Shown here in pieces: positions 2,925 through 21,386 of a DNA stretch of 32,401 bases. The DNA comes from Candidatus Schekmanbacteria bacterium (lineage in GTDB: Bacteria; SZUA-182). The stretch is from NCBI GenBank assembly GCA_016235675.1, contig JACRJN010000075.1, positions 1-32,401 on the forward strand, written 5' to 3'. A program made the position numbers and the translations under genes. The notes under the pieces were generated by a model. The model was not told the origin of the DNA. It made no database searches and saw only the letters and a list, made by a program, of their open reading frames with translations. Within the stretch, counting starts at the first letter, position 1. Each line of letters starts with the position of its first letter.

Positions 2925-3953
2925 ATGGCCAGAAATATCGACTTAATAAAAGAACCCAATAAACGCAAATATAATATGCTGTTTAACGAATTCATCAGCA
3001 TGGATTACTCCCATCCGGCCATTAGCGCTGCCCGGGAAAAACCCGCAATAGCATATTCGGATGCAAATGTAATTTATAATAAAGCGGTGAAGGTTATTGA
3101 GGACATTTCCCCGCAGGTGGAAAACGATTTTGCGAAAGTTGATTTAAAAATACATGATACAAAAGACATTATAACGTCAATCGTCAACAGCCTTCAATCT
3201 TGCGACTGTTTGTTGCCCCTGTCTTTGCATTCAACGGAAAAAAAACATAATTTGGCCTGTCATATGGTAAATGTTTCCATCCTAAGCATAAAAGTGGCCA
3301 TGGGCATTAATTTACCCCCGGATGATTTGGTGAAAATCGGACTGGCGGCTGTTTTTCATGATCTGGGCAAGCTGAAAGTGCCCCAGCAGATTATAAATGC
3401 GCCTCACAAGGTATCCCCGGAAGAATATGAAGAGATAAAAAAGCATTCCGTTTACGGATATAATATAATCAGCAGTTGGCGCAACGAGTATAATAAATTA
3501 GCGGAAATAGTCCTGAACGTTCACGAAAGAGAAGATGGAAGCGGTTACCCCAATGGATATTGTAAGGGTAAAATTCACCAACATTCCCAAATAATAGGAA
3601 TAGTGGATGTTTACGAAGCATTGACCCATCACCGCCCTCACCGCGCTCGCGTGCTGCATTTTGAGGCAATGAGATTGATCCTGACTGAATACAAAGCCGC
3701 TTTTCCCAAATGCTTGTTGAAAACCTTGCTGCAACAATTATCGGCCTATCCGTTGGGTAGCTTTGTAAAGCTTAATTCCACAGAAATAGCCCAGGTAATT
3801 CAAACCAATTCCCTCTCCCCCCTGCGTCCGGTAGTCAAAATAGTATGCGACTCCCAAGGGAAAAGACCCGCTAATCCCCAAATATACAATTTGGCGGAAA
3901 ATTCCTTGCTATTTGTAATAAGTTCGTTATTTGAGGAGAATTTTATGGTATAA
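2925..3953 (+). CDS. HD-GYP domain protein, probable cyclic-di-GMP phosphodiesterase
   Basis: The 342-residue protein carries an HD-GYP domain from about residue 105 to 300. Visible motifs are His113, the FHDLGK metal pair (His145-Asp146), His174, HEREDGSGYP (200-209) and DVYEAL (228-233). The usual HHE motif reads VHE here, so one metal-site histidine is replaced; this occurs in some members but may change metal number or activity. The N-terminal 100 residues have no recognised domain and no receiver domain is present. HD-GYP enzymes degrade cyclic di-GMP, a signal that promotes exopolysaccharide production, so a control role over the locus is plausible. A CTGGAGAG ribosome site precedes the start. 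It is probably cotranscribed with the ATPase gene. Confidence 0.85.
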   Translation: MARNIDLIKEPNKRKYNMLFNEFISMDYSHPAISAAREKPAIAYSDANVIYNKAVKVIEDISPQVENDFAKVDLKIHDTKDIITSIVNSLQSCDCLLPLSLHSTEKKHNLACHMVNVSILSIKVAMGINLPPDDLVKIGLAAVFHDLGKLKVPQQIINAPHKVSPEEYEEIKKHSVYGYNIISSWRNEYNKLAEIVLNVHEREDGSGYPNGYCKGKIHQHSQIIGIVDVYEALTHHRPHRARVLHFEAMRLILTEYKAAFPKCLLKTLLQQLSAYPLGSFVKLNSTEIAQVIQTNSLSPLRPVVKIVCDSQGKRPANPQIYNLAENSLLFVISSLFEENFMV

Positions 3954-3960
3954 TATTGTT

Positions 3961-4974
3961 ATGACTGATATTTTTTTTAATCTTAATTTTCACGATATAA
4001 CAGTAAGTTATAAAAGCAATAATGAATTATTCAGCGATGAATTGGCGCTGGAATTTGTCCAGTGCGCTACAAAAGAAAAATCAATCAGGACGGATATTAG
4101 GATAAATTTTTACGACCTTGATCTTAATCCCGGTTTAGCCGATAAAATAGACGCCTTGCGCTCAAGCAAGCATAAGATTCAGGAGGCCAAATTAAGAGAA
4201 TGTCTGGTTCAGATAATAGACCTTACCGATTTTTCCATCAATATTTGGGTTAAGGGCGATTGGAATATCGACCAGACGTTATTGATTGTGGTTGGCGCTT
4301 TGGGGGGGATGCTAAAGCTTAAATTGCAGCCAAAGCTCAGGCTGGCCGGGTTTCATGCCGCAGCCTTGGCCTGGAATAATCGGGGGGTATTGCTGCCCGG
4401 AGATACCGGAGCGGGCAAAACCACTCTGGCTTATCGCTGTATTCAGGCCGGTTTCGGATACCTTTCGGATGAAGACAGCCTGATAGCTAATCCAGCTAGT
4501 GAAAATAGTTCTCAACCTTTACAAATACTGGCATACCCCCGACGTTTGCGACTGAGCAGGGAAATCACAGCGCTTTATCCTCAGTTAGTTTCAAAGCACC
4601 ACAGCTACCGTCCCTATCAAATTTTCGATCAGTCAGGATTTATATTTAATTTGTATAAAACCCAGCCAAAAGCTTATTTACAGTCAGTTACATTAACTAC
4701 CTGCGTTATTTTGAATAACGATCGCAGTTATACCGGCGTCCCGGAAATCACCCTGCCGGGTAAAGCCAAAGCCAGATTTGCGCTTTTGCATTTTCTGGAG
4801 TCCATAACGTTTGATAGCGACGCGCCGGTCGAACTCAAATCATTATATCCTAACCGGCAAGGTTTTTATTTGGTAGATACAATCTTTGAATCTATAACGA
4901 TATATGAATTAAGGTACAATATTTGCGACCATCTTGATTTGATCCCTGAGTTTTTAAAGGAAACATTATTATGA
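3961..4974 (+). CDS. HprK-related P-loop kinase of a peptide-modification module
   Basis: This 337-residue protein resembles HPr kinase-like proteins. A poorly conserved N-terminal half is followed by FHAAALAWNNRGVLLPGDTG and Walker A GDTGAGKTT (147-155), then YLSDEDSLI (168-175), the HprK-type acidic motif. The classical HprK N-terminal domain is absent. Relatives include the HprK-related kinase A family of exosortase loci and the kinases of paeninodin-like lasso clusters, which phosphorylate the C-terminal serine of the precursor peptide. I chose ATG 3961, eight bases after the HD-GYP stop; the frame is open upstream to 3931 but that part overlaps the preceding gene. The strong GAGGAGA lies further upstream, so coupled translation is likely. 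The stop overlaps the PqqD start as ATGA. Confidence 0.82.
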   Translation: MTDIFFNLNFHDITVSYKSNNELFSDELALEFVQCATKEKSIRTDIRINFYDLDLNPGLADKIDALRSSKHKIQEAKLRECLVQIIDLTDFSINIWVKGDWNIDQTLLIVVGALGGMLKLKLQPKLRLAGFHAAALAWNNRGVLLPGDTGAGKTTLAYRCIQAGFGYLSDEDSLIANPASENSSQPLQILAYPRRLRLSREITALYPQLVSKHHSYRPYQIFDQSGFIFNLYKTQPKAYLQSVTLTTCVILNNDRSYTGVPEITLPGKAKARFALLHFLESITFDSDAPVELKSLYPNRQGFYLVDTIFESITIYELRYNICDHLDLIPEFLKETLL

Positions 4975-5249
4975 ACCGTAATATTAGCATCCCGGAAACG
5001 GTGCTTTGGCGAAAAGACGGTAATCAGGTTGTACTTTTCGATGAAGAACGAGGCGAACCGTATCTTTTGAATGAAACGGCAAGCAGAATATGGGAGCTTT
5101 GCTCAAATTCGATGCCGGTCAACGAAATTACTGCCGCCCTGATGGCAGAGTTTGAAGGGGATCAACAGGTTATCAAAACCGACACCCTGACCTTGCTGAC
5201 CTTGCTTGAGAAAAAGGGGCTTTTGAGGTTTAGCGCCAGTGTTGCTTAA
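4971..5249 (+). CDS. PqqD-like peptide chaperone (RiPP recognition element)
   Basis: The 92-residue protein has the PqqD fold signature: the strand pair VVLFDEERGEPYLLNETASR, then IWEL (about 40-43), a DGxxTVxEI-like helix (NSMPVNEITAAL) and a C-terminal LLTLLEKKGLLRF. PqqD-like proteins bind the leader of a precursor peptide and hand it to modifying enzymes, commonly radical SAM/SPASM enzymes. It starts within the stop of the kinase gene (ATGA overlap) and overlaps the radical SAM start by 11 bases, the tight coupling typical of partner proteins. A family called HPr-rel-A system PqqD chaperone is found beside HprK-related kinase A in exosortase loci; this gene pair matches that order. Confidence 0.88.
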   Translation: MNRNISIPETVLWRKDGNQVVLFDEERGEPYLLNETASRIWELCSNSMPVNEITAALMAEFEGDQQVIKTDTLTLLTLLEKKGLLRFSASVA

Positions 5250-6267
5250 GGCTCCGTTAGAGGTTTTCTGGTGTGTAACTAATCGCTGCAACTTACATTG
5301 CCGCTTTTGCTCTGCGGATTCCGGCTCCGAATCGGTACAGCGGGAAGCGGATATAATGGAGCGCGGGTTTATCCTGGATCAGATAATCCAAAACCGGGTA
5401 TTGAAGGTCTACTTAACCGGCGGAGAACCTTTGTTATGCCCACAAACTATTGATTATATAAAGGTATTAAGCGGGCACAAAATTTTTGTCGAGCTTACCA
5501 CCAATGGTACGCTATTGGATGAAAAGACCGTTCGGGATTTAAAGGCATACGGAATAAACCGGGTACAGGTGAGCATAAACGGTTCATCCCCGGAAATTAA
5601 CGATGGGCTGATGGGTGCCTCCTTCGACCTGATCCTGACCGGTTTAAATAAATTAATCGAACACAAAATAAACACCCATGTCAAAGTTACCATTACCAGA
5701 CACAACCTGACAGACATCCCCAATCTGATTAGATTATTGCTGAACATGGGCTTAAACCAGATGGAATTGTTTGAAGTTATCCCCTTGGGACGGGGTTTTT
5801 TGCATTATAGTGAGTTGAGGCCGGATGAGTCGGAACTCATGGCCTTGCGAGAGCATATAGCCGGACTGGGCAGCGGGCATAAAATACGGTTTCGCAGCTT
5901 TTCCCTGGCAATGAAAGAAAACGACCAGGCAAGCGCCTGCTCAATCGGGCATCAGCGCTCCAGAACCTGCCTGATTATGGCAGACGGAAATGTAATCCCT
6001 TGCGCTCCAGCCCAGGTGTGGAATTTTAACAACAATGTTCTGGAAAAAGGGCTTAGCCGATGCTGGCACGCTCTTGAAGATTACCGGCAGTGCCTTGCGC
6101 CAAAACGGCTTGGCGGCAAATGCGGCAATTGCGATCTGCAAGAAAGCTGCGGTGGCGGCTGCCGGGCGCTGGCCTATCAGTTTACTAACGACTTATGGGC
6201 AGAGTACACCCTTTGCCCGCATATTAAAGGACTTAGAATATACAATTATACCGTTTTTCAGGAGTAG
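5239..6267 (+). CDS. Radical SAM/SPASM peptide-modifying enzyme
   Basis: This 342-residue enzyme has the radical SAM cluster motif CNLHCRFC (Cys17, 21, 24) and the SAM-contacting YLTGGEPL (about 57-64). The C-terminal SPASM domain is complete: Cys234-x15-Gly-x4-Cys255, then Cys295-x2-Cys298-x5-Cys304-x3-Cys308, and Cys326, the full seven-cysteine set for two auxiliary [4Fe-4S] clusters. SPASM enzymes beside PqqD proteins usually modify RiPP precursors, for example by thioether or carbon-carbon links. The start is GTG 5239 (or TTG 5242), inside the end of the PqqD gene. The TAG stop lies inside a palindromic repeat beginning at 6261, so the last two codons may be repeat-derived. The likely substrate is the small peptide at 6382. 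Confidence 0.9.
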   Translation: MLLKAPLEVFWCVTNRCNLHCRFCSADSGSESVQREADIMERGFILDQIIQNRVLKVYLTGGEPLLCPQTIDYIKVLSGHKIFVELTTNGTLLDEKTVRDLKAYGINRVQVSINGSSPEINDGLMGASFDLILTGLNKLIEHKINTHVKVTITRHNLTDIPNLIRLLLNMGLNQMELFEVIPLGRGFLHYSELRPDESELMALREHIAGLGSGHKIRFRSFSLAMKENDQASACSIGHQRSRTCLIMADGNVIPCAPAQVWNFNNNVLEKGLSRCWHALEDYRQCLAPKRLGGKCGNCDLQESCGGGCRALAYQFTNDLWAEYTLCPHIKGLRIYNYTVFQE

Positions 6268-6332
6268 GGACTTCAGTCCCGTTCCCCGCCTGTTCGCATC
6301 GTGTGTCTGGACGGGGCTAAAGCCCCTACTCC
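6261..6332. repeat. GGAGTAGGG palindromic repeat, copy 1
   Basis: Ends GGAGTAGGGACTTCAGTCCC and GGGGCTAAAGCCCCTACTCC are near-complementary, each arm itself a small hairpin. A related copy lies at 8822-8873. The left end supplies the TAG stop of the radical SAM gene. Confidence 0.85.
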
Positions 6333-6381
6333 AAATGACTGCGGTATTTTAATATGTTCCATGTCCCTAAAGGAATAGACC

Positions 6382-6564
6382 ATGCAGAAACCGGAAAAAC
6401 CGAAATGGCAGACACCGCAAATTGAATCCCTGGAAATCAGCAATCCGAAAATATGCAACCGGCCTTTTATCCAGGATGAAATTTGCCAGGCTCAAGGGGT
6501 ACCCATCGGGAGCATCCCTTGCACTCCAAGTGCCAAGGGCAGCCCAAGTCAAACTTTTAGCTAA
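6382..6564 (+). CDS. Candidate RiPP precursor peptide
   Basis: A 60-residue reading frame has a good AAGGA ribosome site eight bases before the ATG and sits between the radical SAM and B2-like protease genes. The N-terminal half reads like a RiPP leader: KPKWQTPQIESLEIS contains W9-x2-P12-x-I14, the same spacing as the Tyr-x2-Pro-x-Leu motif bound by PqqD-like proteins in lasso systems. The C-terminal part has three cysteines (25, 35, 47), several Pro/Gly/Ser/Thr and ends in Ser60. If cleaved before Cys25, Asp32 and Glu33 fall at positions 8 and 9. No homolog is recognised by name. Support is position, ribosome site and leader motif; a chance short frame remains possible. Confidence 0.6.
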   Translation: MQKPEKPKWQTPQIESLEISNPKICNRPFIQDEICQAQGVPIGSIPCTPSAKGSPSQTFS

Positions 6565-6567
6565 CAA

Positions 6568-6587
6568 ACCCGATTTATCGGGTATTT
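6568..6587 (+). terminator. Weak terminator or attenuator hairpin after the peptide gene
   Basis: ACCCGATTTATCGGGT forms a seven-base-pair stem with a very short loop, followed by ATTTT, four bases after the peptide stop. The T-run is short, so it may attenuate and not end transcription. A related palindrome (CCCGATTAATCGGG) is at 27584-27597, so it could also be a dispersed short repeat. Confidence 0.3.
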
Positions 6588-6597
6588 TCAGAGCTTA

Positions 6598-6698
6598 TTG
6601 CAAGAGTCCCGAAAATGTCATTCCCGCAATGATTTTGAGCGGGAATCTGGTTTTATCCCCGATAACTTCATTCGGGGATGACAAATAGTTTTGCAAGA
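6598..6698. repeat. TGTCATTCCCG repeat flanked by an 8-base direct repeat
   Basis: The core at 6616-6683 begins TGTCATTCCCG and ends CGGGGATGACA, with inner GCGGGAATCTGG and TTTATCCCCGATA segments. TTGCAAGA occurs at 6598-6605 and again at 6691-6698, which looks like a target-site duplication around an inserted element. Related repeats are at 1280-1394 and 21425-21523. Confidence 0.65.
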
Positions 6699-6728
6699 AC
6701 CTCTTCAGTCAACAATTGAGGCAAGTCA

Positions 6729-7280
6729 ATGCTGAAAACTGCAATTATCAAACGTAACATATTGTACTTTTTGAGAATCAATACGGAATTTATCGTGCGC
6801 TGGCAATTAGCCGTATATTATAACCGTCTTGGGTATTTTTTTTCCCCTAAGCTCTGCGCTCTTAAAGACCGGATGGGAAAGCCGGCGAATAATCGCTTGT
6901 TTTGCCGGAAAACACGACAAATTATGGCCGATACGTCAACTTGTAGGGAAAAAACTCAGGCCGTATTTAATTATCTAAAACAAAAAAAAGGCGAAACCTT
7001 TGCCCTGCCCTGGCTGTTTCCTGAAGAAGCTTGGATATTACCGGCTTTGGACTGTAAGGGCTTTTCAGTGTTAATGCTGGAAATGCTTAAACATCTTGGA
7101 ATCAGCTCCCAGTTATGGATTGGCATAATGGCGGGTAACCATGAATATACTGGCCATGCCTGGCTGGTAGTGCAAAATGAAACTGACGATATGGTCTATG
7201 ACAGAAAATACCGGCAGGGGGTATCCTTAACCGGGTATAATCCAGATTGCGCATATATATTGACTGCCAGGATTATATGA
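6729..7280 (+). CDS. Lasso-B2-like transglutaminase-fold protease
   Basis: This 183-residue protein looks like the B2 leader peptidase of lasso peptide clusters (Transglut_core3 type). The catalytic triad can be placed as Cys109 in LDCKGFSVLMLEML, His143 in GHAWLVV and Asp158 in VYDRKY, with the usual family sequence KHLGISSQLWIGI between Cys and His. B2 proteins remove the leader together with a PqqD-like B1 protein, which here would be the gene at 4971. The N-terminal 60 residues are rich in basic and hydrophobic residues, as in longer B2 relatives. The start has a GAGG site about eight bases upstream. The lasso cyclase that normally accompanies B2 is absent from the window. Confidence 0.75.
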   Translation: MLKTAIIKRNILYFLRINTEFIVRWQLAVYYNRLGYFFSPKLCALKDRMGKPANNRLFCRKTRQIMADTSTCREKTQAVFNYLKQKKGETFALPWLFPEEAWILPALDCKGFSVLMLEMLKHLGISSQLWIGIMAGNHEYTGHAWLVVQNETDDMVYDRKYRQGVSLTGYNPDCAYILTARII

Positions 7281-7310
7281 TAATTAACCTTAATCTCCCT
7301 CCCCCTTGAT

Positions 7311-7484
7311 GGGCATAAGCGCTAACTTAAGGCATTTTTAAAGTTCCCTCTCCCCCTGGGAGAGGGTTAGGGTGAGGGTTCAAAAGATAAATTATCTTAA
7401 GAAATCAATTAGATAGCTTAAGGTACCCTCACCTTAATCCTCTCCCAGGGGGAGAGGAAAATACTTAAGTTAGCGCTTATGCCC
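7311..7484. repeat. Large nested inverted repeat
   Basis: Two perfect 21-base arms (GGGCATAAGCGCTAACTTAA plus G at 7311-7331; complement at 7464-7484) enclose a second near-perfect pair at about 7346-7379 and 7425-7456 of the CCCTCTCCC...GGGTGAGGG type. Outside the arms, CTCCCTCCCCCTTGATGGG and CCCACCAGGGGAGAGGGG look like a third interrupted palindrome. This suggests repeated insertion of palindromic elements into each other. It fills most of the gap between the B2-like and nucleotidyltransferase genes. Confidence 0.85.
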
Positions 7485-7546
7485 ACCAGGGGAGAGGGGA
7501 CTTTATAGGTAGCAACTAATTGATGTAAACCGCGGGGGGATTTACA

Positions 7547-8755
7547 TTGTGGACACGGGAAGAACAATTTATTATTAATCGCCTGGCGCTCGTTCAAAAG
7601 CCGCCGCAAAGCTTAAACCGGCTGTCCCTGGAAAATTTAAACTGGAATAGCTTTCTTGAACATTCCCGTCGGCACGGGCTTTCCGGTTTGCTCTACCACT
7701 ATTGTCAATCGCCCGGAACAAAATTTCCTGCCCCCGTTCTCGATAGCCTGCGCAAGGAATATTACCATAACCTGATACAAAACACCCGCTTACTCAAAGA
7801 ATTAGACAATCTTTTGGAAAATTTTGAGCAAAAGCGGATCAAGGTTATGCTCTTGCAGGGCGTTGCCTTAAGCTTATGCCACATTTACCCTTCCCCCGGC
7901 TTAAGACCGATTACCGATATTGACCTTTTAATCGACGATGAAAACTTATCTTTAGCCCGTCAAGCGCTTAAAGATTCAGGGTATCGCGCAATCCCTCTTT
8001 ATCCCGACCTTTTTTGCCGCAAAAACATAGTAATAGACCTGCATACCTCGGTTGCCAACCTGTCCCGGATTTCAGCGCGTCGCTATGCGGTTAATCTGCC
8101 GAATCAGCGTTTGTGGGAGCAAGCGCAAAGGATACGGGGCAGTGCCTATATTCCCGATATAAATGACCTGATTATTATCCAGTCGGCGCATTTGCAAAAA
8201 CATTCCTATTCCCGGCTAATCTGGTTTATGGATATAGCCCGGTTAATGGAAAAATACGGTGCCGATCTTGACTGGGACAAAATATGGCTTAGGGCTGAAG
8301 AATTTAACTTGCAACGTCCATTATACTTTACCCTGCGCTGCTTAAAAGCGCTTCTGAATTATCCGTTACCCATCGCCTTGAAGGATAATCCGCCCGGCTG
8401 CAAACTGAATCGCCTGGAAAACCGGCTGATCGAAAATTTAATTTGCGGTAACCGGGTGGAAAAAATGGGGGATTATCTGTATTTTGCTTCCATTAAGCAG
8501 TTTAAACAGAAGTTTTTGTTTATAAAAGAAAACGTCTTTCCGCAAAAAGAGGTAATGAGCCAGGTAATCAGGCATTCCAATCCGATTATAATTGCATATG
8601 GTTATATCATCCGCTTTTGGCAGTCCTTATGGTATGGGCTTAAACTGTTTGGTAGCGTTCTCAATAAGAGACCCAAAGCGTCATTGCGAGGCAGCCTTAT
8701 CGCCGAAGCAATCTCATCCACACGCATGGGGATTGCTTCGCTCCGCTCGCAATGA
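7547..8755 (+). CDS. Family-5 nucleotidyltransferase (PF14907 type)
   Basis: The 402-residue protein matches the uncharacterised nucleotidyltransferase family: VMLLQGVALSLCHIYPSPGL then RPITDIDLLID (120-130), where the two Asp of DID are the expected metal ligands, followed by ALKDSGYRAIPLYPDLF. Members occur with HprK-related kinases in exosortase loci and in lasso clusters, where one (PsmN of pseudomycoidin) is reported to add sugar to a phosphorylated C-terminal serine. A similar role on the peptide at 6382 is inferred. Start is TTG 7547, with GGGGGG about eight bases upstream. Residues from about 378 on are translated from the palindromic repeat at 8678-8758, which also provides the stop; the original C-terminus is probably lost or replaced. 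Confidence 0.8.
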   Translation: MWTREEQFIINRLALVQKPPQSLNRLSLENLNWNSFLEHSRRHGLSGLLYHYCQSPGTKFPAPVLDSLRKEYYHNLIQNTRLLKELDNLLENFEQKRIKVMLLQGVALSLCHIYPSPGLRPITDIDLLIDDENLSLARQALKDSGYRAIPLYPDLFCRKNIVIDLHTSVANLSRISARRYAVNLPNQRLWEQAQRIRGSAYIPDINDLIIIQSAHLQKHSYSRLIWFMDIARLMEKYGADLDWDKIWLRAEEFNLQRPLYFTLRCLKALLNYPLPIALKDNPPGCKLNRLENRLIENLICGNRVEKMGDYLYFASIKQFKQKFLFIKENVFPQKEVMSQVIRHSNPIIIAYGYIIRFWQSLWYGLKLFGSVLNKRPKASLRGSLIAEAISSTRMGIASLRSQ

Positions 8756-8936: not shown

Positions 8937-11108
8937 ATGATAAGCAATAAATGGAAAATTCTCACGCTTGTGTGTTGCCTGCTTATTTTCTCCGCTTGCG
9001 CCAGGCAGATAAAACTGGCCGAATCTCCCCCCGATTTATGGTCGGCAAATCGCGGCCCGACCGGAAGTGGATTCTTCAAGAGTCTGATTGCATCCGATAT
9101 TAACGGCGACGGTTTGCCGGATTTGGCAGGAGGCGGTTATAATCCCGGAAACATAAAAGTCTGGCAAAACGCCGGCGACGGAAAGTTTAAGGACGCCCAG
9201 GATTTTTTCCCGGACATGGGGGAAGTAAGGGCGCTGGCGGCAGCGGATTTGGACAAAGACGGGAAGACAGACCTGGTCTCCAGCGTTTGGAATGTTCAAC
9301 CGGGAATCTATATCTGGTATCAAAGGGACGGCGGCAAATGGGAAAGGTTTGCCGTAACGCATACCGGAAAATATGAGGATATATGTATAGATGATGTAAA
9401 CAGCGACGGTTATCCCGACATTATTGCCGCGAATGCAGCTTCGGAAAATAGCGGCGGCATTCAAATTTGGCTTGGGAGCAAGGAAAACACCTGGAATCAG
9501 GAGCAAGGCCCTACAAAAATTGGGATTTTCCGTAAGGTTCTGACAGCAGACCTTAATCGGGACGGGAAAAAAGATATTCTGGCTTCCGGCTGGGGACAAA
9601 CCGGGGGGATCAGATTATGGACGGGAAACGGCTTGGGTGGATGGAGTGCCGCTGCGCCTATTGTAGAAAACGGTTATTACCGGGGATTGGCGGTGGCCGA
9701 TTTTAACGGGGACAATCTTTTGGATGTCATCGCCTCCGCTTTCCAGAAAGGGATTGAGGTTTGGTGGGGCAACCCCGACGGGAAATGGGAGAAACACTCC
9801 AAAGTCGTGGAAGAGGGAAGTTTTTGGAGTCTGGAGGTCTGCGATTTGAACCGGGATCAATACGACGATATTGTGGCTTCGTCTTTTTCCAACCAGGGGA
9901 TGACAGTTTTTTTACCCGGAAAAGAAGAGTGGTTAAAGGATACCAGCTTGTCCGAACAGGGAAGTTATTATGACATAACTTGCACAGACTTCAACCGGGA
10001 TGGGGTAGCCGACATTGCCGCGGCAAGCTACGGCGAGGGGATAAAGGTATGGGTGCATGGTTCGGGCCGCTTCGGTTATGAAATCAAGACTGAGCAGGCG
10101 GAAAAGTTGAAACTCGAAACGGAAAATCTGTCAGCCAAGCCCGATTCGGCGGCGCTGGATGATGAACAGTTAAAACAGGTTTCGGAAAATAAAGTGTTTA
10201 AAAATATGGAGGGGGTTTCTGAATATTTAATCGGCCCCAAGGATATTCTGGAAGTTACCATTTGGGAGGGATCAACCTTTACTAAAACCGAGGCGGAGGT
10301 GGACGTTCAAGGCATAATATCCATCCCTTATTTAGATGTAAAAGTCGGGGGGGTTACCTGTAAGGAGGCCGCCGATATAGCGGTAACCAAACTTTCCACC
10401 ATTATAAAAAATCCCAGGGCTAACGTGAGGGTCAAGGAATGCAACAGCAAGCAGGTTACTTTGCTTGGCGCGATACGCTCCCTTTCCCGGCAGCCCACCG
10501 GGCCGGGGATATATAAGCTGTGCGGCAAAACCAGTCTGATGCAAATGATAAGCAGCGCCGGAGGGTATACGGAAAAGGCGGATTTGCAGCATATCCGCAT
10601 AAACCACACCGAAGGGCAAACCGTGTATGCCGACATGTTTAAAGTAATTTCCCAAGGGAATATCCAGGAAGATATTGTTTTGGACAACGGAGATTTGATA
10701 CTTATTCCCGAAAGGGAAGAGACCCAGGTAGAAGAAAGCAAGGTATATATCTTCGGCGAAGTGGAAAAACCCGGCATGTATAACATAAAAGATCAAATGA
10801 ACGTCCTGCAACTGATCGGGCTTGCCGGAGGATACACCAGCAGCGCGGTATTGGAAAGCACCCACATCATCCGGGGCGACCTGACGCGTCCGCGCATTAT
10901 TGCTTTAAACCTGGAAAACCTCCTGGGAAAAGGCGACTTAAGCGAAAATCCGGCGCTTGAACCCAATGATATTGTTTTTATTCCCAGAAGCTCCCTGACG
11001 AATGTGAACAGCTATTTTGCCAAACTTATTCCCATGTTGCAGTTCTTTCTTTATCCCGGTCTTTATCGGGATTACTATACCACTGGCGGCGGGTTGCGTC
11101 TGCATTAA
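8937..11108 (+). CDS. Outer-membrane polysaccharide export lipoprotein with N-terminal FG-GAP propeller
   Basis: This 723-residue protein joins two parts. A signal peptide ends in a lipobox (FSAC, Cys21). Residues 45-380 contain seven repeats spaced 48-52 residues apart, each with a calcium-loop motif: DINGDG (54), DLDKDG (104), DVNSDG (153), DLNRDG (205), DFNGDN (255), DLNRDQ (303) and DFNRDG (351), as in FG-GAP/VCBS seven-bladed beta-propellers. After a linker (385-425) come a polysaccharide export domain (about 429-500, YLIGPKDILEVTIWEG) and two SLBB domains (about 504-590 and 602-683), the core of Wza. The C-terminal tail (about 695-710) could be the membrane-spanning helix. Typical Wza is about 380 residues, so the propeller is extra. 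It should form the export channel; the propeller may bind sugar or protein at the periplasmic or outer face. Start has AAGGA upstream. Confidence 0.9.
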   Translation: MISNKWKILTLVCCLLIFSACARQIKLAESPPDLWSANRGPTGSGFFKSLIASDINGDGLPDLAGGGYNPGNIKVWQNAGDGKFKDAQDFFPDMGEVRALAAADLDKDGKTDLVSSVWNVQPGIYIWYQRDGGKWERFAVTHTGKYEDICIDDVNSDGYPDIIAANAASENSGGIQIWLGSKENTWNQEQGPTKIGIFRKVLTADLNRDGKKDILASGWGQTGGIRLWTGNGLGGWSAAAPIVENGYYRGLAVADFNGDNLLDVIASAFQKGIEVWWGNPDGKWEKHSKVVEEGSFWSLEVCDLNRDQYDDIVASSFSNQGMTVFLPGKEEWLKDTSLSEQGSYYDITCTDFNRDGVADIAAASYGEGIKVWVHGSGRFGYEIKTEQAEKLKLETENLSAKPDSAALDDEQLKQVSENKVFKNMEGVSEYLIGPKDILEVTIWEGSTFTKTEAEVDVQGIISIPYLDVKVGGVTCKEAADIAVTKLSTIIKNPRANVRVKECNSKQVTLLGAIRSLSRQPTGPGIYKLCGKTSLMQMISSAGGYTEKADLQHIRINHTEGQTVYADMFKVISQGNIQEDIVLDNGDLILIPEREETQVEESKVYIFGEVEKPGMYNIKDQMNVLQLIGLAGGYTSSAVLESTHIIRGDLTRPRIIALNLENLLGKGDLSENPALEPNDIVFIPRSSLTNVNSYFAKLIPMLQFFLYPGLYRDYYTTGGGLRLH

Positions 11109-11159
11109 GCGACAGCATCGGGTAGTTTTGATGTAAAGGACTTAGAAGATATTGATATA

Positions 11160-11241
11160 CCCCCCCACCCTAACCCTCCCCCGCAAGGGGGGAGGGAATT
11201 TATCCCCCTCCCCCTTGATGGGGGAGGGACGGGGTGGGGGT
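11160..11241. repeat. CCCCCACCCTAACCCTCCC palindromic repeat
   Basis: This G/C-homopolymer-rich palindrome (CCCACCCTAACCCTCCCCC then GGGGGAGGGACGGGGTGGGG) lies between the export and chain-length genes. It belongs to the same broad type as the inner arms at 7346-7456. It could act as a transcription barrier but has no T-run. Confidence 0.8.
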
Positions 11242-11302
11242 GATTATTGCAATCCAGAAACAGTATATTTGAAAATTCCAAGTCTCTAAAGGATAAAACC
11301 GG

Positions 11303-13495
11303 ATGTCCCAGTATGAATTAACTTTACGAGACTATTGGCGGGTAATAAGAAAGCGGAAGAGCGTTATTATTCTTACCACTGTGGTGTTAGCCGCGTCCAC
11401 TTATGTTATAAGCGAACTGCGCAAACCGCAACCTTTATATCAAGCCACATCTCAGGTCAAAATTGAACAAACCAGTAATATGGCCGGTTTGTTTGTGGAG
11501 ATGTTTACTTTTTCCGGCGGCGACAATTTGGCGACCCAGACCAGAATTATCAAGAGCTTTCCGGTAATGGAGCAGGTAGGAAAAAGATTAGGGGTCATTC
11601 CGCAAACTGTATCCAGCGAGGAGGTAAATAAATCCGACAAGTGGCTGGACATCATTTCCGGCATACAGGACAAAATAGATACCCAACAAGTGGAAAAAAC
11701 CAATATCATCGAGATAACATCCACTTCATCCAACCCTGAAGAAGCCCAGAAAATCGCCAATTGGACAGCCGAGGAATTCCGTGCATTTAATATTTTCAAT
11801 AAAAATAAGCAGGTGCTGGAAGCCCGTAAATTTATTGAACAGCAATTGGTGACGGTGGGAGACAGATTAAAAGACGCTGAGGAATCCCTGAAACTATTTA
11901 AGGAAAGCAGCGGTTTGATGGCCTTGTCTGAAGAGGTAAGCACCAGCATAAAGAACCTGGTGGACGTGGAGAGCGAATACCGGCAGACAATGGAGGTCAA
12001 AAACGAAATCCAGTCCCAAATCGAAGCGGTAAAACAAAAAAGAGTAGCGGCAGAGAAACCTACCCCCAGAATATTTACCGACAAAGAACTTTCCCTGACC
12101 TTTAAATTAAACAGTGATCTGTTGAATCTGCAATTAAAAAGAGACAATCTCCTGTTAAACAATTTTCCTGAACACCCTTTAGTGAAAGATGTAGACGCCC
12201 AGATCGAAAATGTCCGCAGCGAATTGCTTCGGGATTTAGACGCCAAGCTTAAGACTTACCAGTCCCGCGAGGACAGTCTGGCTTTAGATTATTATAAACT
12301 GAGGCAGCAATATCAAAAACTGCCCGACAAAGCTTTGACTATGGCCAGATTGCAGCGGGAAGTCACGGTAAACGAGGAATTGTTCTCCCTGCTTAAAAGC
12401 AAACACCAGGAGGTGCTGATAAAGGAATCCGAAAAGATTGAAGAGGTCAGCCTGGTCAAACCGGCGCTATATGTTTCCGTTCCCATCAACCCTCCCCAGA
12501 CCACGAGAAAAACCCTGGTGGGTGCCGTCATCGGCTTCATGCTGGGGCTGGTATTATCCTTTGTTTCCGAATCGTTCGATACCTCGATCGGAACTATTGA
12601 GGATGTCGAATCTTACCTGGAACTGCCCGTGTTGGGCGTTATCCCTTATTTTGAATCCAAGGCGGTCAAAAAATATCTGACCGACAGTGCCTCAAAACAT
12701 TTTCAGAACCACGAGCATCTGTCTTCTTATCATCTGGCGCTGCATTTTATGCCCAAATCGCCCTTGGTGGAAAGTTATCGTTCCTTGCGCACCAGCGTTC
12801 AATTCGCCGCCCTGAAAAGCAACGCCAAGGTCTTGCTGTTGACCAGCACCTCTTTGCGGGAAGGCAAAACCTCCACCGCCATCAACCTGGCAATAACCTT
12901 ATCGCAAACAGGCAAACGGGTGCTGCTGGTTGATGCTGACTTACGAAAACCCACCATCCATCATATCCTGGGCATTGAAAAGTCACCCGGACTATCGGAC
13001 ATCCTGATCGGCCACGTCCAATGGGAAACCTGTGTTCAAACCATAACAGATTTGTTGCTGGGAAATCTGGGGTTTGAAAATATCATAACCTCTCCCGGCG
13101 TGGACAATATCCACATTATCACCTGCGGAACATTGCCCCAAAATCCTTCAGAATTTTTGAATTCAGAGCAAATAGAGGACTTGATCGCCATTTGGAAATC
13201 CCATTATGATTATGTTCTTTTCGATACCCCGCCTACACTTCCTATAACCGATGCGGTGATCTTAAGCTCCAAAGTAGACGGGGTTATCATCGTCTATCAG
13301 GTAAGCAAAATAGCCCGGACGGCCTTGAAAAGAACCAAATTGTTACTGGAAAGCGTCCATGCCAAGGTCTTGGGTGTGGTGCTGAATTCCATCCGGGCTG
13401 AAGTCAGCCCGGATTTTTTCCAGTTCAGCTACAACCTTTATCGTTATTACGGGCATGAAGACCAGGCTAAAATCAAAGCTAAGGGGAAGCAATAA
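11303..13495 (+). CDS. Wzz-type chain-length regulator fused to BY-kinase
   Basis: The 730-residue inner-membrane protein has a Wzz domain with TM1 at about 20-36, a long coiled-coil-rich periplasmic part, and a proline-containing TM2 (PINPPQTTRKTLVGAVIGF, about 395-425). The cytoplasmic half is a bacterial tyrosine kinase: Walker A STSLREGKTSTA (about 515-526), Walker A' LLVDADLRKP (about 540-549), Walker B YVLFDTPP (about 636-643). The C-terminus carries a tyrosine cluster (Tyr710, 713, 715, 716), the expected autophosphorylation site. It partners with the export protein upstream to set chain length and drive export. No Wzb-type phosphatase is seen in the window. Ribosome site AAAGGA precedes the ATG; the next gene starts three bases after the stop. 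Confidence 0.93.
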   Translation: MSQYELTLRDYWRVIRKRKSVIILTTVVLAASTYVISELRKPQPLYQATSQVKIEQTSNMAGLFVEMFTFSGGDNLATQTRIIKSFPVMEQVGKRLGVIPQTVSSEEVNKSDKWLDIISGIQDKIDTQQVEKTNIIEITSTSSNPEEAQKIANWTAEEFRAFNIFNKNKQVLEARKFIEQQLVTVGDRLKDAEESLKLFKESSGLMALSEEVSTSIKNLVDVESEYRQTMEVKNEIQSQIEAVKQKRVAAEKPTPRIFTDKELSLTFKLNSDLLNLQLKRDNLLLNNFPEHPLVKDVDAQIENVRSELLRDLDAKLKTYQSREDSLALDYYKLRQQYQKLPDKALTMARLQREVTVNEELFSLLKSKHQEVLIKESEKIEEVSLVKPALYVSVPINPPQTTRKTLVGAVIGFMLGLVLSFVSESFDTSIGTIEDVESYLELPVLGVIPYFESKAVKKYLTDSASKHFQNHEHLSSYHLALHFMPKSPLVESYRSLRTSVQFAALKSNAKVLLLTSTSLREGKTSTAINLAITLSQTGKRVLLVDADLRKPTIHHILGIEKSPGLSDILIGHVQWETCVQTITDLLLGNLGFENIITSPGVDNIHIITCGTLPQNPSEFLNSEQIEDLIAIWKSHYDYVLFDTPPTLPITDAVILSSKVDGVIIVYQVSKIARTALKRTKLLLESVHAKVLGVVLNSIRAEVSPDFFQFSYNLYRYYGHEDQAKIKAKGKQ

Positions 13496-13498
13496 ACC

Positions 13499-14914
13499 AT
13501 GCTTACACATCGGGATGAGGGGTATCCGTTTAATCTTTATATTCCCGGAATAATCCTAATATCCCTTCTTACCGCCTGGGGCATTGTGCAACTGTCGCCT
13601 TCTACCTCCATGTTTTTGGTTGTTTTGCTGGCGCTTTTTGTCGTCGGCTTTCTTAAAACGGAATGGGCGCTCTATCTTTTGATTTTTTCCATGCTGCTGT
13701 CTCCGGAAATTGTATTGGGAAGCTTAAGTCACGGAACTGCCGTGGAAAGCAGCCGTTCACTGGTTATCCGTCTGGATGACGTATTGGTTTTAATTATCAG
13801 CCTGGGATGGCTGGCGAAAAGTGCGATTTACAAAGAGTTGGGGCTTTTTCTGAAAACGCCGCTTAATAAGCCTATCGTGGGATACGTCACGGTCTGCCTT
13901 TTTTCCACTCTCCTGGGAATACTGTTTGACCGGGTTCGGGATAAACTGGGGTTGCTTTATGTCGTTAAATATATTGAATATTTTTTCATTTATTTTATTG
14001 TGGTCAACAACCTGCATTCCAGAAATCAGGTCAAGCGCTATTTAGTAGCTATTTTACTGACTTGCGTCATTGTATGTGTTATCGCTCTGCTGCAAGTGCC
14101 GGAAGGCAAAAGGGTTACCGCTCCCTTTGAGGGAGCGGTGGGCGAACCCAATACCTTCGGAGGTTATCTGGCGCTGATTTTTTCTGTTGTGCTCGGATTA
14201 TGTTTTAGCCTGCGCTCCCCCAACAAAATCCTGGCGCTGGCCGCTATGGCGGTTATGATTATGGTGGCATTTGCCTTTACGCTGTCCAGAAGTTCATGGA
14301 TTGCGCTTGTTCCTATGTGGTTGACGCTGCTTGTCTTTTGCAAAAAAAAGGAAGCCCTGATAATCGCTACCGTTTTAGTTGTAATAACCAGTGCTCTGGT
14401 TTTGCCCGCGCAAGTGGAGGAGCGAATCAGCTATACCTTCCAGAAACATTCCCGCGATTCTTTGGAAATCGGGGGTATAAGCTTCGATCCGTCCACTTCG
14501 GCCCGGATAAAAAGCTGGAAAAACGTTTTGCAAGACATTAAAAACCATCCCCTGATGGGCTTTGGTATTACCGGATATTCTTTTGTGGACAGCCAGTATT
14601 TTCGGACTCTGATCGAAACCGGATTTGTGGGGTTGCTGGCTTTTCTCGGTCTGCTCCTGGCTATTTTCAGGCAGATTATGCGCAATCTCACACAAGTCAA
14701 GTCTCCCTTGTTTTACGGCCTGGAACTGGGAATGCTGGCCGGCATCGTCGCTATCTACACTCATGCTATAGGCGCAAACTCCTTTATCATTGTGCGGATC
14801 ATGGAACCGTTCTGGTTTCTTTTGGCCATCGCGGTGGTGTTACCGGAAATCGAGCGTCAAGAAGCGGAGGGAAATACGGGAACTGAACTGAAGAGGATGT
14901 TCCCCTATAGATAA
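13499..14914 (+). CDS. Wzy-like polysaccharide polymerase / O-antigen ligase family membrane protein
   Basis: The 471-residue protein is strongly hydrophobic with about a dozen membrane segments and a large non-membrane loop at about 310-360. The Wzy_C signature region is visible: TLSRSSWIALVPMWLTLLVF (about 260-279) with the conserved Arg-Ser pair, and HPLMGFGITGYSFVDSQYF in the loop, where family members carry a catalytic histidine. Position directly after the Wzz-kinase and before the flippase supports the polymerase role over a ligase role. Polymerases diverge fast, so the substrate cannot be read. Confidence 0.87.
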   Translation: MLTHRDEGYPFNLYIPGIILISLLTAWGIVQLSPSTSMFLVVLLALFVVGFLKTEWALYLLIFSMLLSPEIVLGSLSHGTAVESSRSLVIRLDDVLVLIISLGWLAKSAIYKELGLFLKTPLNKPIVGYVTVCLFSTLLGILFDRVRDKLGLLYVVKYIEYFFIYFIVVNNLHSRNQVKRYLVAILLTCVIVCVIALLQVPEGKRVTAPFEGAVGEPNTFGGYLALIFSVVLGLCFSLRSPNKILALAAMAVMIMVAFAFTLSRSSWIALVPMWLTLLVFCKKKEALIIATVLVVITSALVLPAQVEERISYTFQKHSRDSLEIGGISFDPSTSARIKSWKNVLQDIKNHPLMGFGITGYSFVDSQYFRTLIETGFVGLLAFLGLLLAIFRQIMRNLTQVKSPLFYGLELGMLAGIVAIYTHAIGANSFIIVRIMEPFWFLLAIAVVLPEIERQEAEGNTGTELKRMFPYR

Positions 14915-14927
14915 TAGAGGTTATTTC

Positions 14928-16355
14928 ATGTCTACTTTCAGGAAAATTGTAAACAACACGGCTATTCAAGCCTGTGGGTCTGCCTTTAATACCGTGACCG
15001 GGTTATTGGTTACCGCGGCTTTGGCTCGCTATCTGGGCAAGGACGGGTATGGGGAATATAGTTTGGTTTTTGTCTATTTATTCTTTGCCGGAGTAATAGC
15101 CGACTTGGGTTTTGACGGTATTCTTGTCCGGGAATTAGCCAAAGTTCCCGATTTAACCAGCCAAAGGGCGGTTTCCTTAATTTCCAATACTATTATCTGG
15201 AAATTGGTTTTTTCCGGTCTGGCATTGGCGATAAGCGCGGCTTATCTTTTTTTTCGGGACTATCCGCTCAATACCAAATTAGCGGTAATTTTATTGGAAT
15301 TAACCTTATTTGCGGGCGCAGGGGAAAGCCTGGAAGCCATTTTCAAGGTTAACCTACAGATCAAGTACAGCGTTATCTCCAGCCTTATTTCTCAAGGAAC
15401 GCATCTGTTTTTCCTCCTGCTGTTTATTTATTTAAAAACCACGCTGTTAGTTTTAATCGGCGCCTATTTTCTGGCTCGTTTGGTACGGTGTGTCGTCGTT
15501 TATCTGTTTTCCACCAAATTTATCCGTTTCCGCTTTTGTTTGGATAGAAGCCTGATGAAATTTTTGTTTCTTGAGTCTTTTCCCCTGGGGATAGCCGCCG
15601 GGCTTTGGATGGTTTATTACCGGGTCGATACATTAATGCTGGATTATTATAAAGGGGTAGGGGCGGTCGGGCAATACAATGCGGCTTATAAATTCGTCGA
15701 TCTGTTTTTATTGTTTTCTGGAATGATTATGGTTTCGATTTATCCGATAATGTCTGCCACTTATTCCGATCACATTGAAAGCTTGAAGAAACTATACCAG
15801 AAATCGATCGATTATTTGTCTATCGTCGGGGCGTTTATAACCTTTTTTACCTTCATTTTTGCCAAATACATCATCACGCTCATATATGGCACCAGGTTTT
15901 TAGATTCGATCCCGACTTTGCGTATTTTGGCCTGGGTGGGCATCTTTATCTTTGTCAGCAATATTTACGGGCACATGTTTATTGTTCTTGGGCTGCAAAA
16001 GCGGGACTTCCTTTTGCTCAGGTTTTTGGGACTGGTGGTCAATGTTTTCCTGAATTTGAAATTAATCCCGGCTTGGGGCGCCAACGGGGCGGCAGCGGCA
16101 ACCGTTTTTACCGAATTCCTGATTTTCCTTCTGGCGCCGATTCTTATCGGAAATAAGTTTTCTTATCATCCTTCATTCAAGAACCTTTTCAAGTCTGTCG
16201 GAACGGCGGTTTTCCCCTGCCTGTTGTTTCTTTTCGTTCCTTTTTTGGCGGAGAGTATTTATCCGGCCATAATATTGTTTTTAACCTTAAGTCTGCTGAT
16301 GTTCCGGCGCGATTATTTGCAAATGTGGGAATTTTTTAAGGGGGAAGTTAATTAA
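14928..16355 (+). CDS. Wzx-like polysaccharide flippase
   Basis: This 475-residue multi-pass protein belongs to the polysaccharide transporter (MATE-like/MVF) superfamily. It begins with the typical AIQACGSAFNTVTGLLVTAA and ARYLGKDGYGEYSLV, has about 12-14 membrane segments, and contains YYRVDTLMLDYYKGVGAVGQ (about 227-246) as in O-antigen flippases. It would flip undecaprenyl-linked repeat units to the periplasm for the polymerase upstream. TAGAGG lies ahead of the ATG. The next start follows its stop by one base. Confidence 0.93.
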   Translation: MSTFRKIVNNTAIQACGSAFNTVTGLLVTAALARYLGKDGYGEYSLVFVYLFFAGVIADLGFDGILVRELAKVPDLTSQRAVSLISNTIIWKLVFSGLALAISAAYLFFRDYPLNTKLAVILLELTLFAGAGESLEAIFKVNLQIKYSVISSLISQGTHLFFLLLFIYLKTTLLVLIGAYFLARLVRCVVVYLFSTKFIRFRFCLDRSLMKFLFLESFPLGIAAGLWMVYYRVDTLMLDYYKGVGAVGQYNAAYKFVDLFLLFSGMIMVSIYPIMSATYSDHIESLKKLYQKSIDYLSIVGAFITFFTFIFAKYIITLIYGTRFLDSIPTLRILAWVGIFIFVSNIYGHMFIVLGLQKRDFLLLRFLGLVVNVFLNLKLIPAWGANGAAAATVFTEFLIFLLAPILIGNKFSYHPSFKNLFKSVGTAVFPCLLFLFVPFLAESIYPAIILFLTLSLLMFRRDYLQMWEFFKGEVN

Positions 16356-19225: not shown

Positions 19226-20340
19226 AAATATGTGTCATTTCACCTTACTATCCGCCGCATGTCGTCTGCGATGGAATCGCAGATTATACCGAGAAATTGT
19301 GCCGACATATGGCACAGCGGGGGCATCGAATTATAGTTTTGGCGTCGATTGGATATAAAGCATCATCGAATGACAACGACGATTCCATTCACGTTAACCC
19401 CTTTGTCGCCAAATGGGATTTTAGGGCATTTTTGAAACTGCTCAAATTATGCAGGCAGGAAAGATTCGACGCGGTAAATCTGCAATATTCCCCGCCGCTT
19501 TACGGGTTCTGGTTCAAGCTGCTGTTTCCACTTGTATCTTTGATTTGTCCGACTACCGTTACTTTTCATACCTTAACCGGCGGCGGACATCCCAATAAAT
19601 TGATCGCTCCCGTTCTGGCGCTGTTTTGCTCCCATTGTATCAGCGCCAACGAGGAGGTAAGCTATTTGATAAAGAAATATCTGCCCTGGGAAAACCCGGT
19701 TCAGATACCCATCGGTTCCAACATCGACCCGGTGGAAATTGATCCGCAACTCATCAGGCAAAAATATAATCCCGAAAACAAGCTGATTTTAACCCACTTC
19801 GGCCTGTTTTATCCCGGCAAAGGGGTGGAAACCATATTGGAAGCGGCGCAGCAACTCAAGACCGAATTTGCCGGCTTCAAGCTCTTTATGCTGGGGGAAC
19901 GCTGGCCGGGAAAAGAGGATTATTATCTTGGGTTACAGCAAAAGGCCAAGGATTTGGGGCTGGATGAATGGATAACCTGGGCGGGGTATTTGCATGAAAA
20001 AGCGGTATCGGAGTATCTGGCGATAACCGATATTATGCTGCTGCCTTACGATCAGGGAGCGTCCATCCGCAGAGGCAGTCTGATCGCGGCTTTGTCTGCC
20101 GGTCTGCCGGTTATCACTACGTATCCGGCCATACCATCGGTCTATATCCAAGCGGATGAGAATATAGCGGTAGTACCGTCAAAAAATTCTCAGGCATTGA
20201 AAGACAAAATACTGGCGCTGGCCAATGACCCGGCGGCCAGAAAAAGACTGGGGGAAAACGCCCGGCGGCTCTCTGGCGAGTTTTCATGGGACAATATCGC
20301 CCAAAAAACCCTGCAATTGCTTGAAGGTAAAAGATGCTAA
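19222..20340 (+). CDS. GT4-like glycosyltransferase
   Basis: A 372-residue GT-B enzyme starting KICVISPYYPPHVVCDGIAD, the standard N-terminal strand. The C-terminal domain shows LTHFGLFYPGKGVETILEAA and LPYDQGASIRRGSLIAALSA (about 273-292), a variant in which the usual E-x7-E acidic pair is replaced by the RRGSL-type motif seen in some GT4 subfamilies. ATG 19222 overlaps the preceding stop. Sugar and acceptor cannot be told from sequence. Confidence 0.85.
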   Translation: MKICVISPYYPPHVVCDGIADYTEKLCRHMAQRGHRIIVLASIGYKASSNDNDDSIHVNPFVAKWDFRAFLKLLKLCRQERFDAVNLQYSPPLYGFWFKLLFPLVSLICPTTVTFHTLTGGGHPNKLIAPVLALFCSHCISANEEVSYLIKKYLPWENPVQIPIGSNIDPVEIDPQLIRQKYNPENKLILTHFGLFYPGKGVETILEAAQQLKTEFAGFKLFMLGERWPGKEDYYLGLQQKAKDLGLDEWITWAGYLHEKAVSEYLAITDIMLLPYDQGASIRRGSLIAALSAGLPVITTYPAIPSVYIQADENIAVVPSKNSQALKDKILALANDPAARKRLGENARRLSGEFSWDNIAQKTLQLLEGKRC

Positions 20341-21386
20341 GGCATATTTCCAGATGGTATTATCAACTGCCGGTCAAGTTTGCCGGGTCAGGCTATGCTT
20401 TACCCTGCCGAAACGCGGTATTTGAGCTTACCTATCAGTGCAACCTGAATTGCCGGATGTGTTCGTTTAAAAACGAAATCCGGCATACTTCGCGCCAAGG
20501 CAGTGATTTTTTGCCGCTTCAGCCGGGGGAGATTATCCAGGCATTGGCGCAATTTCCCAAACATAGCAACATTGCCTTTACCGGCGGGGAAATCCTGGTA
20601 AAGCAGGGCGTTATGGAAATACTTGAGGCGGCGGCCAAAAGACACCGCATAAGTCTGGCTACAAACGGTACGCTGCTTGACGACGATATAGCCCAAAAAC
20701 TGGTGGACTGGGGGGTTATGGCAATCGGTTTTTCCCTGGACGGAACGCAGGATATACATAATGCCATTCGGGGAGATAATAACGCCTATCAAAAATTAAT
20801 AGCCGGTCTGGAAAGCATAAACAAAAAGAAATTAAACCACTCCTATCCCCGGCTTGGACTAAACGGGGTGATTTTAAAGCAAAATTTTTCCCAACTGCAT
20901 CATAATTTGCATTTGGCCAAACAGTTGAAGATAAACACCTGTACTTTTCAAATATTTGATCCTTCCTGGAGCAGATCGGGCTGGCGACTGTGCGACTCTA
21001 TCGATACCGGGCAGAAGGTTATGCCACAGGTTGAAACCATAGACGCCGATTGGCTGAAAGAAAGCCTTGAAGAAATAGAGCGCAAAGCCGTGGAATTAAA
21101 CGTTAACGTTAAATTTATGCCATCGCTGACCAGCGCGGAAATTGTGGACTATTACCGCCAACAATTTAATCCGGCAGGTTGGAAATGTTTTCTGCCCTGG
21201 AGCACGATGCGCATTTCGCCTTACGGGGATGTCTTCCCTTGTCTGAATTTCAAGATCGGCAATATTCGGCAGACAAAACCCGCCACCTTATGGAATAGTT
21301 ATCATTACCGGAATTTCAGGAAAAGCCTGGCCAAGGTTAATTTGTTCGAAAGTTGCGCCGGATGCTGTAAGATGCTGCGAAGCTAG
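20334..21386 (+). CDS. Second radical SAM enzyme with a short SPASM-like tail
   Basis: This 350-residue protein has the cluster motif CNLNCRMC (Cys36, 40, 43), a TGGEILVK loop, and LATNGTLLDD and IGFSLDGTQD strands of the radical SAM barrel. The tail has Cys285-x12-Gly-x4-Cys303 and Cys341-x2-Cys344-Cys345 and then ends, so the full seven-cysteine SPASM set is not present; it looks like a shortened (twitch-like) auxiliary-cluster domain. It overlaps the upstream glycosyltransferase by seven bases. Radical SAM enzymes inside glycosyltransferase operons may modify sugars or a peptide; the target is unknown. It could act on the same peptide as the enzyme at 5239, which is speculative. Confidence 0.83.
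   Translation: MLRHISRWYYQLPVKFAGSGYALPCRNAVFELTYQCNLNCRMCSFKNEIRHTSRQGSDFLPLQPGEIIQALAQFPKHSNIAFTGGEILVKQGVMEILEAAAKRHRISLATNGTLLDDDIAQKLVDWGVMAIGFSLDGTQDIHNAIRGDNNAYQKLIAGLESINKKKLNHSYPRLGLNGVILKQNFSQLHHNLHLAKQLKINTCTFQIFDPSWSRSGWRLCDSIDTGQKVMPQVETIDADWLKESLEEIERKAVELNVNVKFMPSLTSAEIVDYYRQQFNPAGWKCFLPWSTMRISPYGDVFPCLNFKIGNIRQTKPATLWNSYHYRNFRKSLAKVNLFESCAGCCKMLRS

Follow-up and report, generated by a model that had tools for sequence, protein, structure and literature searches.

The locus considered here occupies positions 3961-8755 of contig JACRJN010000075.1 from a Candidatus Schekmanbacteria bacterium (assembly GCA_016235675.1); "the window" denotes the whole 32,401-nucleotide stretch that was analysed. 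Six frames, all on the + strand, encode an HprK-like kinase (K), a PqqD-like protein (B1), a radical S-adenosylmethionine (SAM)/SPASM enzyme (rS), a short peptide (A), a B2-like protein (B2) and a nucleotidyltransferase of the NTP_transf_5 family (N), in that order (Table 1). The preliminary description of this DNA, made from the sequence alone, had reported six co-directional genes with small overlaps among the first three, and the coordinates and strand were verified, as were the overlaps, of 4 bases (ATGA) between the kinase and PqqD genes and of 11 bases between the PqqD and radical SAM genes. The peptide, B2-like and NTP_transf_5 genes are set apart by gaps of 114-266 bp containing palindromic repeats, and the operon is thus compact in its first half only. 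The 84-bp repeat ahead of the peptide gene has 12 matches in the genome, and three other copies agree with it at 99% over their full or nearly full length.

Table 1. Features of the module and the start of the adjoining polysaccharide locus (window positions).
Feature	Positions	Strand	Basis
HprK-like serine kinase of the HPr kinase/PEPCK fold; precursor as predicted substrate	3961..4974	+	HprK_rel_A, 1ko7 profile, Foldseek, invariant residues
PqqD-like discrete RiPP recognition element, leader-binding, B1 analogue (predicted)	4971..5249	+	PF05402 7e-17; 9x90_B 8.5e-10
Radical SAM/SPASM peptide-modifying enzyme, PqqE-like (predicted)	5239..6267	+	PF04055 1e-24; PqqE 6c8v 1e-32; GTG start
Dispersed palindromic repeat resembling a miniature inverted-repeat transposable element, gap between radical SAM and peptide genes	6262..6345	+	12 genome matches; 22-nt inverted arms
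Precursor peptide, 60 amino acids	6382..6564	+	Counterparts in 11 other loci; purifying selection in closely related pairs
B2-like transglutaminase-fold cysteine protease, predicted leader peptidase	6729..7280	+	Transglut_core3 3e-5; lasso_biosyn_B2 0.0012; shared motifs
Nested palindromic repeats, gap between B2-like and NTP_transf_5 genes	7297..7505	.	Inverted repeats I1, I2, I4
NTP_transf_5 protein (PsmN/LppN type), predicted substrate the phosphorylated peptide	7547..8755	+	PF14907 4e-48; DxD
Start of polysaccharide locus, outside the module: FG-GAP/Wza-like export, Wzz/tyrosine-kinase type, O-antigen ligase/Wzy type, Wzx-type flippase	8937..16355	+	Pfam

The module recurs in 11 further loci from three other phylum-level groups, which makes 12 loci in four groups with the window. 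A first scan of the whole collection with the single radical SAM sequence gave no matches; single-sequence searches returned G050 and, weakly, G114 from among 145 genomes (genomes are given by our own labels) and G147 from the phylum of G050. Profile searches, in which the profiles for finding and scoring others included nine of the 12 radical SAM proteins, raised the related loci to 11, and an alignment-based scan recovered mainly distant radical SAM proteins, its only members being loci of the G114/G253 type. Two largely overlapping sweeps covered 386 genomes each, and the 980 genomes searched in all include many repeats and undersample the true distribution. The distribution is patchy, in that eight further genomes from the window's class yielded no match.

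A PqqD gene and a peptide with the motif WxxPx[IL] stand beside the radical SAM gene in all 12 loci, and the NTP_transf_5 and B2-like genes are each adjacent in four. Set against the window order (K-B1-rS-A-B2-N), the others read K-B1-rS-A-B2 in G369 (NTP_transf_5 gene on another contig), N-K-rS-A-B1-B2 in G388, N-K-rS-A-B1 in G390, K-rS-A-B1 in G389 (contig ends at K), rS-A-B1-B2 in G387 (contig ends at rS), N divergent to K-B1-rS-A in G050, B1-rS-A in G147 (contig ends at B1), and B1-rS-A without an adjacent kinase in G114, G253, G379 and G395. The preliminary description had named beforehand two findings that would count against it, namely that no other genome kept the radical SAM and B2-like genes beside the kinase and PqqD genes, or that the peptide frame was not conserved. 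G369 and G388 keep all four genes together, and the peptide has counterparts in every one of the other loci. The same six-gene order, also to be sought elsewhere, was recovered in part: G369 retains the first five genes in the window order, and G388 has all six in a different one.

The window peptide carries the leader motif WQTPQI (WQTPQIESLEI), a core with the spacing C-x9-C-x11-C and the C-terminus QTFS. In each of the 12 loci the short WxxPx[IL] frame beside the radical SAM gene ends in serine, most of these frames follow a Shine-Dalgarno-like stretch, and nine of the peptides show C-x9-C followed by x10-12-C. The peptides of the window and G390, from different phylum-level groups, have C-x9-C-x11-C and VPIGSxPC in common at 40% identity overall. 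Ratios of nonsynonymous to synonymous substitution (dN/dS) for peptide pairs were 0.09 (G388/G387), 0.28 (G114/G253) and 0.47 (G390/G389). Short WxxP frames are rare in the fetched DNA (124 in 2.8 million strand-bases, the true ones of redundant loci included), and a chance frame was rejected because of its conservation beside the radical SAM gene in 12 loci. The last two residues are FS in eight loci, namely the six whose kinase is adjacent plus two truncated by contig ends. In G050 and G147 the precursors (L002 1242-1445 and L006 1394-1603) have in front of WxxP what looks like a twin-arginine signal, formed by an initial MKRREFLEKGKK and a short run of apolar residues.

The radical SAM domain of the third gene scored above the Pfam cut-off and its SPASM domain below its own (0.008). 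The CxxxCxxC motif (C17-x3-C21-x2-C24) and seven SPASM cysteines (C234, C255, C295, C298, C304, C308 and C326) that mark peptide maturases are invariant in six aligned loci, and the 12 proteins form one clade (support 99/97), separate from other radical SAM proteins of the same genomes. In NCBIfam the window protein was over the cut-off of no maturase family, and a viperin match in PADLOC was put down to the radical SAM core that both have and was rejected. Amid glycosyltransferases at window positions 20334-21386 lies a second radical SAM/SPASM protein, which falls outside the module clade. PqqE is the closest solved relative, mycofactocin and PqqE maturases stand near the top in NCBIfam, and the PqqD protein is separate, as in pyrroloquinoline quinone (PQQ) synthesis, all of which would suit a pathway to a peptide-derived redox cofactor in which the radical SAM enzyme prepares the peptide and trimming yields a small product. 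Such a pathway is very improbable here, as the enzyme scores far under the cut-offs of the mycofactocin and PqqE families and no cofactor-dependent dehydrogenase was recognised alongside the module. Cofactor cores of the PQQ/mycofactocin type hold Glu-Tyr or Val-Tyr, whereas the module peptides keep cysteines and a C-terminal serine.

The PqqD protein, which also scored above the Pfam cut-off, resembles the recognition elements (RREs) of ribosomally synthesized and post-translationally modified peptides (RiPPs). A profile of the window, G050 and G147 proteins matched 9x90_B best, with 9x8z_B far behind (0.3); the former is titled "lasso peptide biosynthesis PqqD family chaperone" and the latter "PqqD family protein", and judged by these titles they appear to be the RREs of paeninodin type and of linear polyphosphorylated peptides (LPPs), respectively, from the 2026 study that described LPPs (PMC13381572). 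Paeninodin RREs prefer tryptophan in the leader and LPP RREs tyrosine (PMC13381572), and the WxxP motif agrees with the former preference. A discrete lasso-type RRE and a leader of the form [Y/W]xxPx thus occur together here, in the window and with the 11 other leaders.

Assignment of the kinase and the B2-like protein is less direct. Both Hpr_kinase_C (E 0.012) and HprK_rel_A (3.7e-8) matches of the kinase lie below curated cut-offs, as do those of the B2-like protein (lasso_biosyn_B2 score 19.3 against a cut-off of 33), and the two calls therefore rest on relatives and conserved residues. For the kinase, a profile matched the HprK structure 1ko7 (6e-4), and H132, K153 and E171 are invariant in the alignment of six loci. 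Its structure model is of low confidence (pLDDT, the predicted local distance difference test, 56) and too weak to lean on, but a Foldseek search with it still appears to point to the HprK/PEPCK fold (E about 2e-5). For the B2-like protein, C109/H143/D158 and the motifs LDCKGF and GHAW are common to the window, G369, G388 and G387; its predicted structure (pLDDT 38) is too weak to lean on, and a sequence search of the PDB gave no relevant match. The NTP_transf_5 protein scored above its Pfam cut-off and has a conserved D124-x-D126 (DxD), and genes of this family also stand beside the kinase in G050, G388 and G390.

Since PqqD, radical SAM and peptide genes occur in four loci without an adjacent kinase, and since the same genomes hold several other loci with kinase, PqqD and NTP_transf_5 genes, the RiPP unit could consist of those three genes only, the kinase and nucleotidyltransferase being HPr-rel-A/exopolysaccharide neighbours by shared location. 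We regard this as rather unlikely, given that the kinase directly adjoins the module in six of the 12 loci, in three phylum-level groups and despite changed gene order, and that FS-ending precursors track this kinase-adjacent group. Moreover, the six module kinases matched a kinase profile, built from three of them, at E 2e-42 or better, against 6e-16 or worse for all other kinases in these genomes.

The gene set, the conserved catalytic residues and a conserved precursor with its RRE motif, cysteine spacing and C-terminal serine make it probable, with moderate confidence, that the module is a RiPP pathway parallel to those of LPPs and paeninodin-type lasso peptides, with the radical SAM enzyme in place of the macrolactam cyclase and with phosphorylation of the C-terminal serine, possibly followed by sugar or nucleotide addition. 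The gene sets of relatives and the conserved peptide bear out the earlier suggestion of a RiPP-type cassette that joins this toolkit to a radical SAM/SPASM enzyme and lacks a cyclase. With catalytic roles assigned by homology, the PqqD protein would bind the WQTPQI leader of the precursor and present it to the enzymes, and the radical SAM/SPASM enzyme would make the primary modification in the cysteine-bearing core; from the conserved cysteines we would guess at thioether bonds of the sacti- or ranthipeptide type. The kinase would then phosphorylate the C-terminal serine, with the NTP_transf_5 protein attaching a sugar or nucleotide to the phosphate so formed; the B2-like protease would cut off the leader, this order of reactions being itself conjectural. 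There is published precedent for phosphorylation followed by sugar addition in PadeK and PsmK/PsmN: PadeK phosphorylates the C-terminal serine of its precursor, and PsmN then puts hexoses on the phosphoserine.

Several observations weigh against this proposal. The published catalytic set of the kinase is His-Lys-Asp-Asp; here the first acidic residue is D170 in the window and Glu in G388, G389 and G390, and the second is Glu. Besides the family matches of the kinase and B2-like protein below cut-offs and their poor structure models, no B2-like gene adjoins the module in G389, G390, G050, G147 or any of the four kinase-less loci. The core also varies: the precursors of G050 and G147, which begin in a Tat-like manner, have two cysteines at another spacing. 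The peptides of the four kinase-less loci end in LS, and not a single kinase match came from the G395 assembly; thus the C-terminal serine need not be a phospho-acceptor, and the link between kinase and serine is one we infer. In the other three of these genomes a weak kinase match lies elsewhere, at most about 1 kb from an NTP_transf_5 match, so a kinase could act in trans.

Downstream of the module follow the Wza-, Wzc-, Wzy- and Wzx-type genes and then many glycosyltransferases and sugar enzymes, as judged by Pfam. The first of these genes (8937-11108) joins FG-GAP repeats to a domain for polysaccharide export that is Wza-like and has SLBB repeats, a fusion that looks unusual. On the upstream side are genes for an AAA_22 ATPase and for a protein with an HD domain, and an ATPase/HD pair of like kind is found near the G387 module. 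G389 and G390 likewise lie in glycosyltransferase loci, and G147 adjoins FkbM and flippase genes. By extension of the proposed pathway, the mature peptide might be exported with or attached to surface polysaccharide, the NTP_transf_5 step and the glycosyltransferases of the locus providing the link, for which the hexoses added by PsmN to a phosphorylated lasso peptide offer a parallel. Such coupling seems unlikely: no direct sign of it was seen, neither G369 nor the kinase-less loci lie in an evident polysaccharide locus, and the role of LPPs was also left open by their authors (PMC13381572).

Our search turned up no publication describing this cassette, nor any with HprK, a radical SAM enzyme and a RiPP together. 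The chances appear even that the module represents an undescribed RiPP class, present in at least four phylum-level groups, whose peptides would be radical-SAM-modified, C-terminally phosphorylated and glycosylated, often in polysaccharide loci, with the radical SAM enzyme in the lasso-cyclase slot. The suggestion of a new class in the preliminary description is tempered by LPPs, which can lack a cyclase and sit in a capsule locus (PMC13381572), and by the RRE-Finder paper, which mentions in passing discrete lasso-type RREs beside radical SAM enzymes. If correct, the module would belong as a single branch to a broader combinatorial family, whose members pair an RRE and an HprK-like kinase, often together with a nucleotidyltransferase, with either a cyclase, an SpI peptidase or one of several lineages of radical SAM enzyme. 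It would join two peptide-modification chemistries not described together in any paper found and add a further case to the recurrent association, still unexplained, of phosphorylated RiPPs with polysaccharide loci. Conserved precursors are now available for the radical SAM/RRE/kinase combination, and their common cysteine spacing and C-terminal serine give specific, testable predictions.

Related clusters were seen alongside. The window's own genome holds an LPP-like cluster (G000 contig 4, L114 3623-8257) with an HprK_rel_A-like kinase, an archaeal/SipW-type signal peptidase, PqqD, NTP_transf_5 and a SPASM-domain protein that resembles sulfatase maturases but in which Pfam detected no Radical_SAM domain. 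Its candidate precursor, at 3623-3784, carries YTKPRI. This cluster suggests that LPP-type clusters may exist outside Bacillota. A radical SAM gene of a lineage distinct from the window's lies with an HprK-like kinase and a SipW/S24-type peptidase-like gene in L118 4722-8785 (G147) and L120 5346-8127 (G050), the former also with PqqD and NTP_transf_5. Another lineage, ScmF-like, has the same partners in L119 5644-8455 (G147) and L121 2751-5517 (G050), where PqqD, kinase, radical SAM and Transglut_core3-type genes form one run and no precursor was recognised. In L123 3051-6004 (G379), PqqD, a small protein, a radical SAM enzyme, a frame resembling a kinase and, at 4026-4196, a candidate precursor with YQKP occur together.

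Among known systems, sactipeptides and ranthipeptides also pair a radical SAM/SPASM enzyme with an adjoining cysteine-containing core peptide, but the module differs in its separate RRE, kinase and nucleotidyltransferase and in reaching the cut-off of none of the maturase families. The HPr-rel-A system (HprK_rel_A, PqqD_rel_X) has the same kinase and PqqD pair and is not known to include a radical SAM enzyme or a peptide core; it was rejected on scores (kinase 32.8 against a cut-off of 200, PqqD 32.5 against 35). The SynChlorMet cassette (NCBIfam ScmC/D/E/F) unites an HprK-like protein, PqqD and PqqE-like radical SAM enzymes; it differs in having two radical SAM models, and the window proteins reached 14 bits (cut-off 125), 19 bits (cut-off 100) and about 100 bits (cut-off 400), so it too was set aside. 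With the paeninodin and pseudomycoidin lasso systems (PadeA/K/B1/B2/C, PsmK/PsmN) the module has in common a discrete lasso-type RRE, a WxxP leader, a C-terminal serine and a nucleotidyltransferase and, by prediction, an HprK-like kinase and a B2-like transglutaminase fold. Unlike these systems, it has a radical SAM/SPASM enzyme and a cysteine-bearing core and lacks a macrolactam cyclase; as no Asn-synthetase-like cyclase was found among the Pfam-scanned window proteins, identity with a lasso peptide was rejected. LPP clusters likewise combine an RRE, an HprK kinase and a nucleotidyltransferase in capsule loci without a cyclase (PMC13381572). They employ an SpI/SipW-type leader peptidase, a YxxPxVL leader (YxxPxVLxHQxIxFETxxS in full) and phosphorylation at core Ser3 (PMC13381572), whereas the module has a B2-like protease, WxxP, a C-terminal serine and the radical SAM enzyme; no archaeal/SipW-type signal peptidase or SpI was found among the scanned window proteins and the leader differs, so LPP identity was rejected. 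By its parts, the module should nevertheless work like paeninodin lasso peptides and LPPs.

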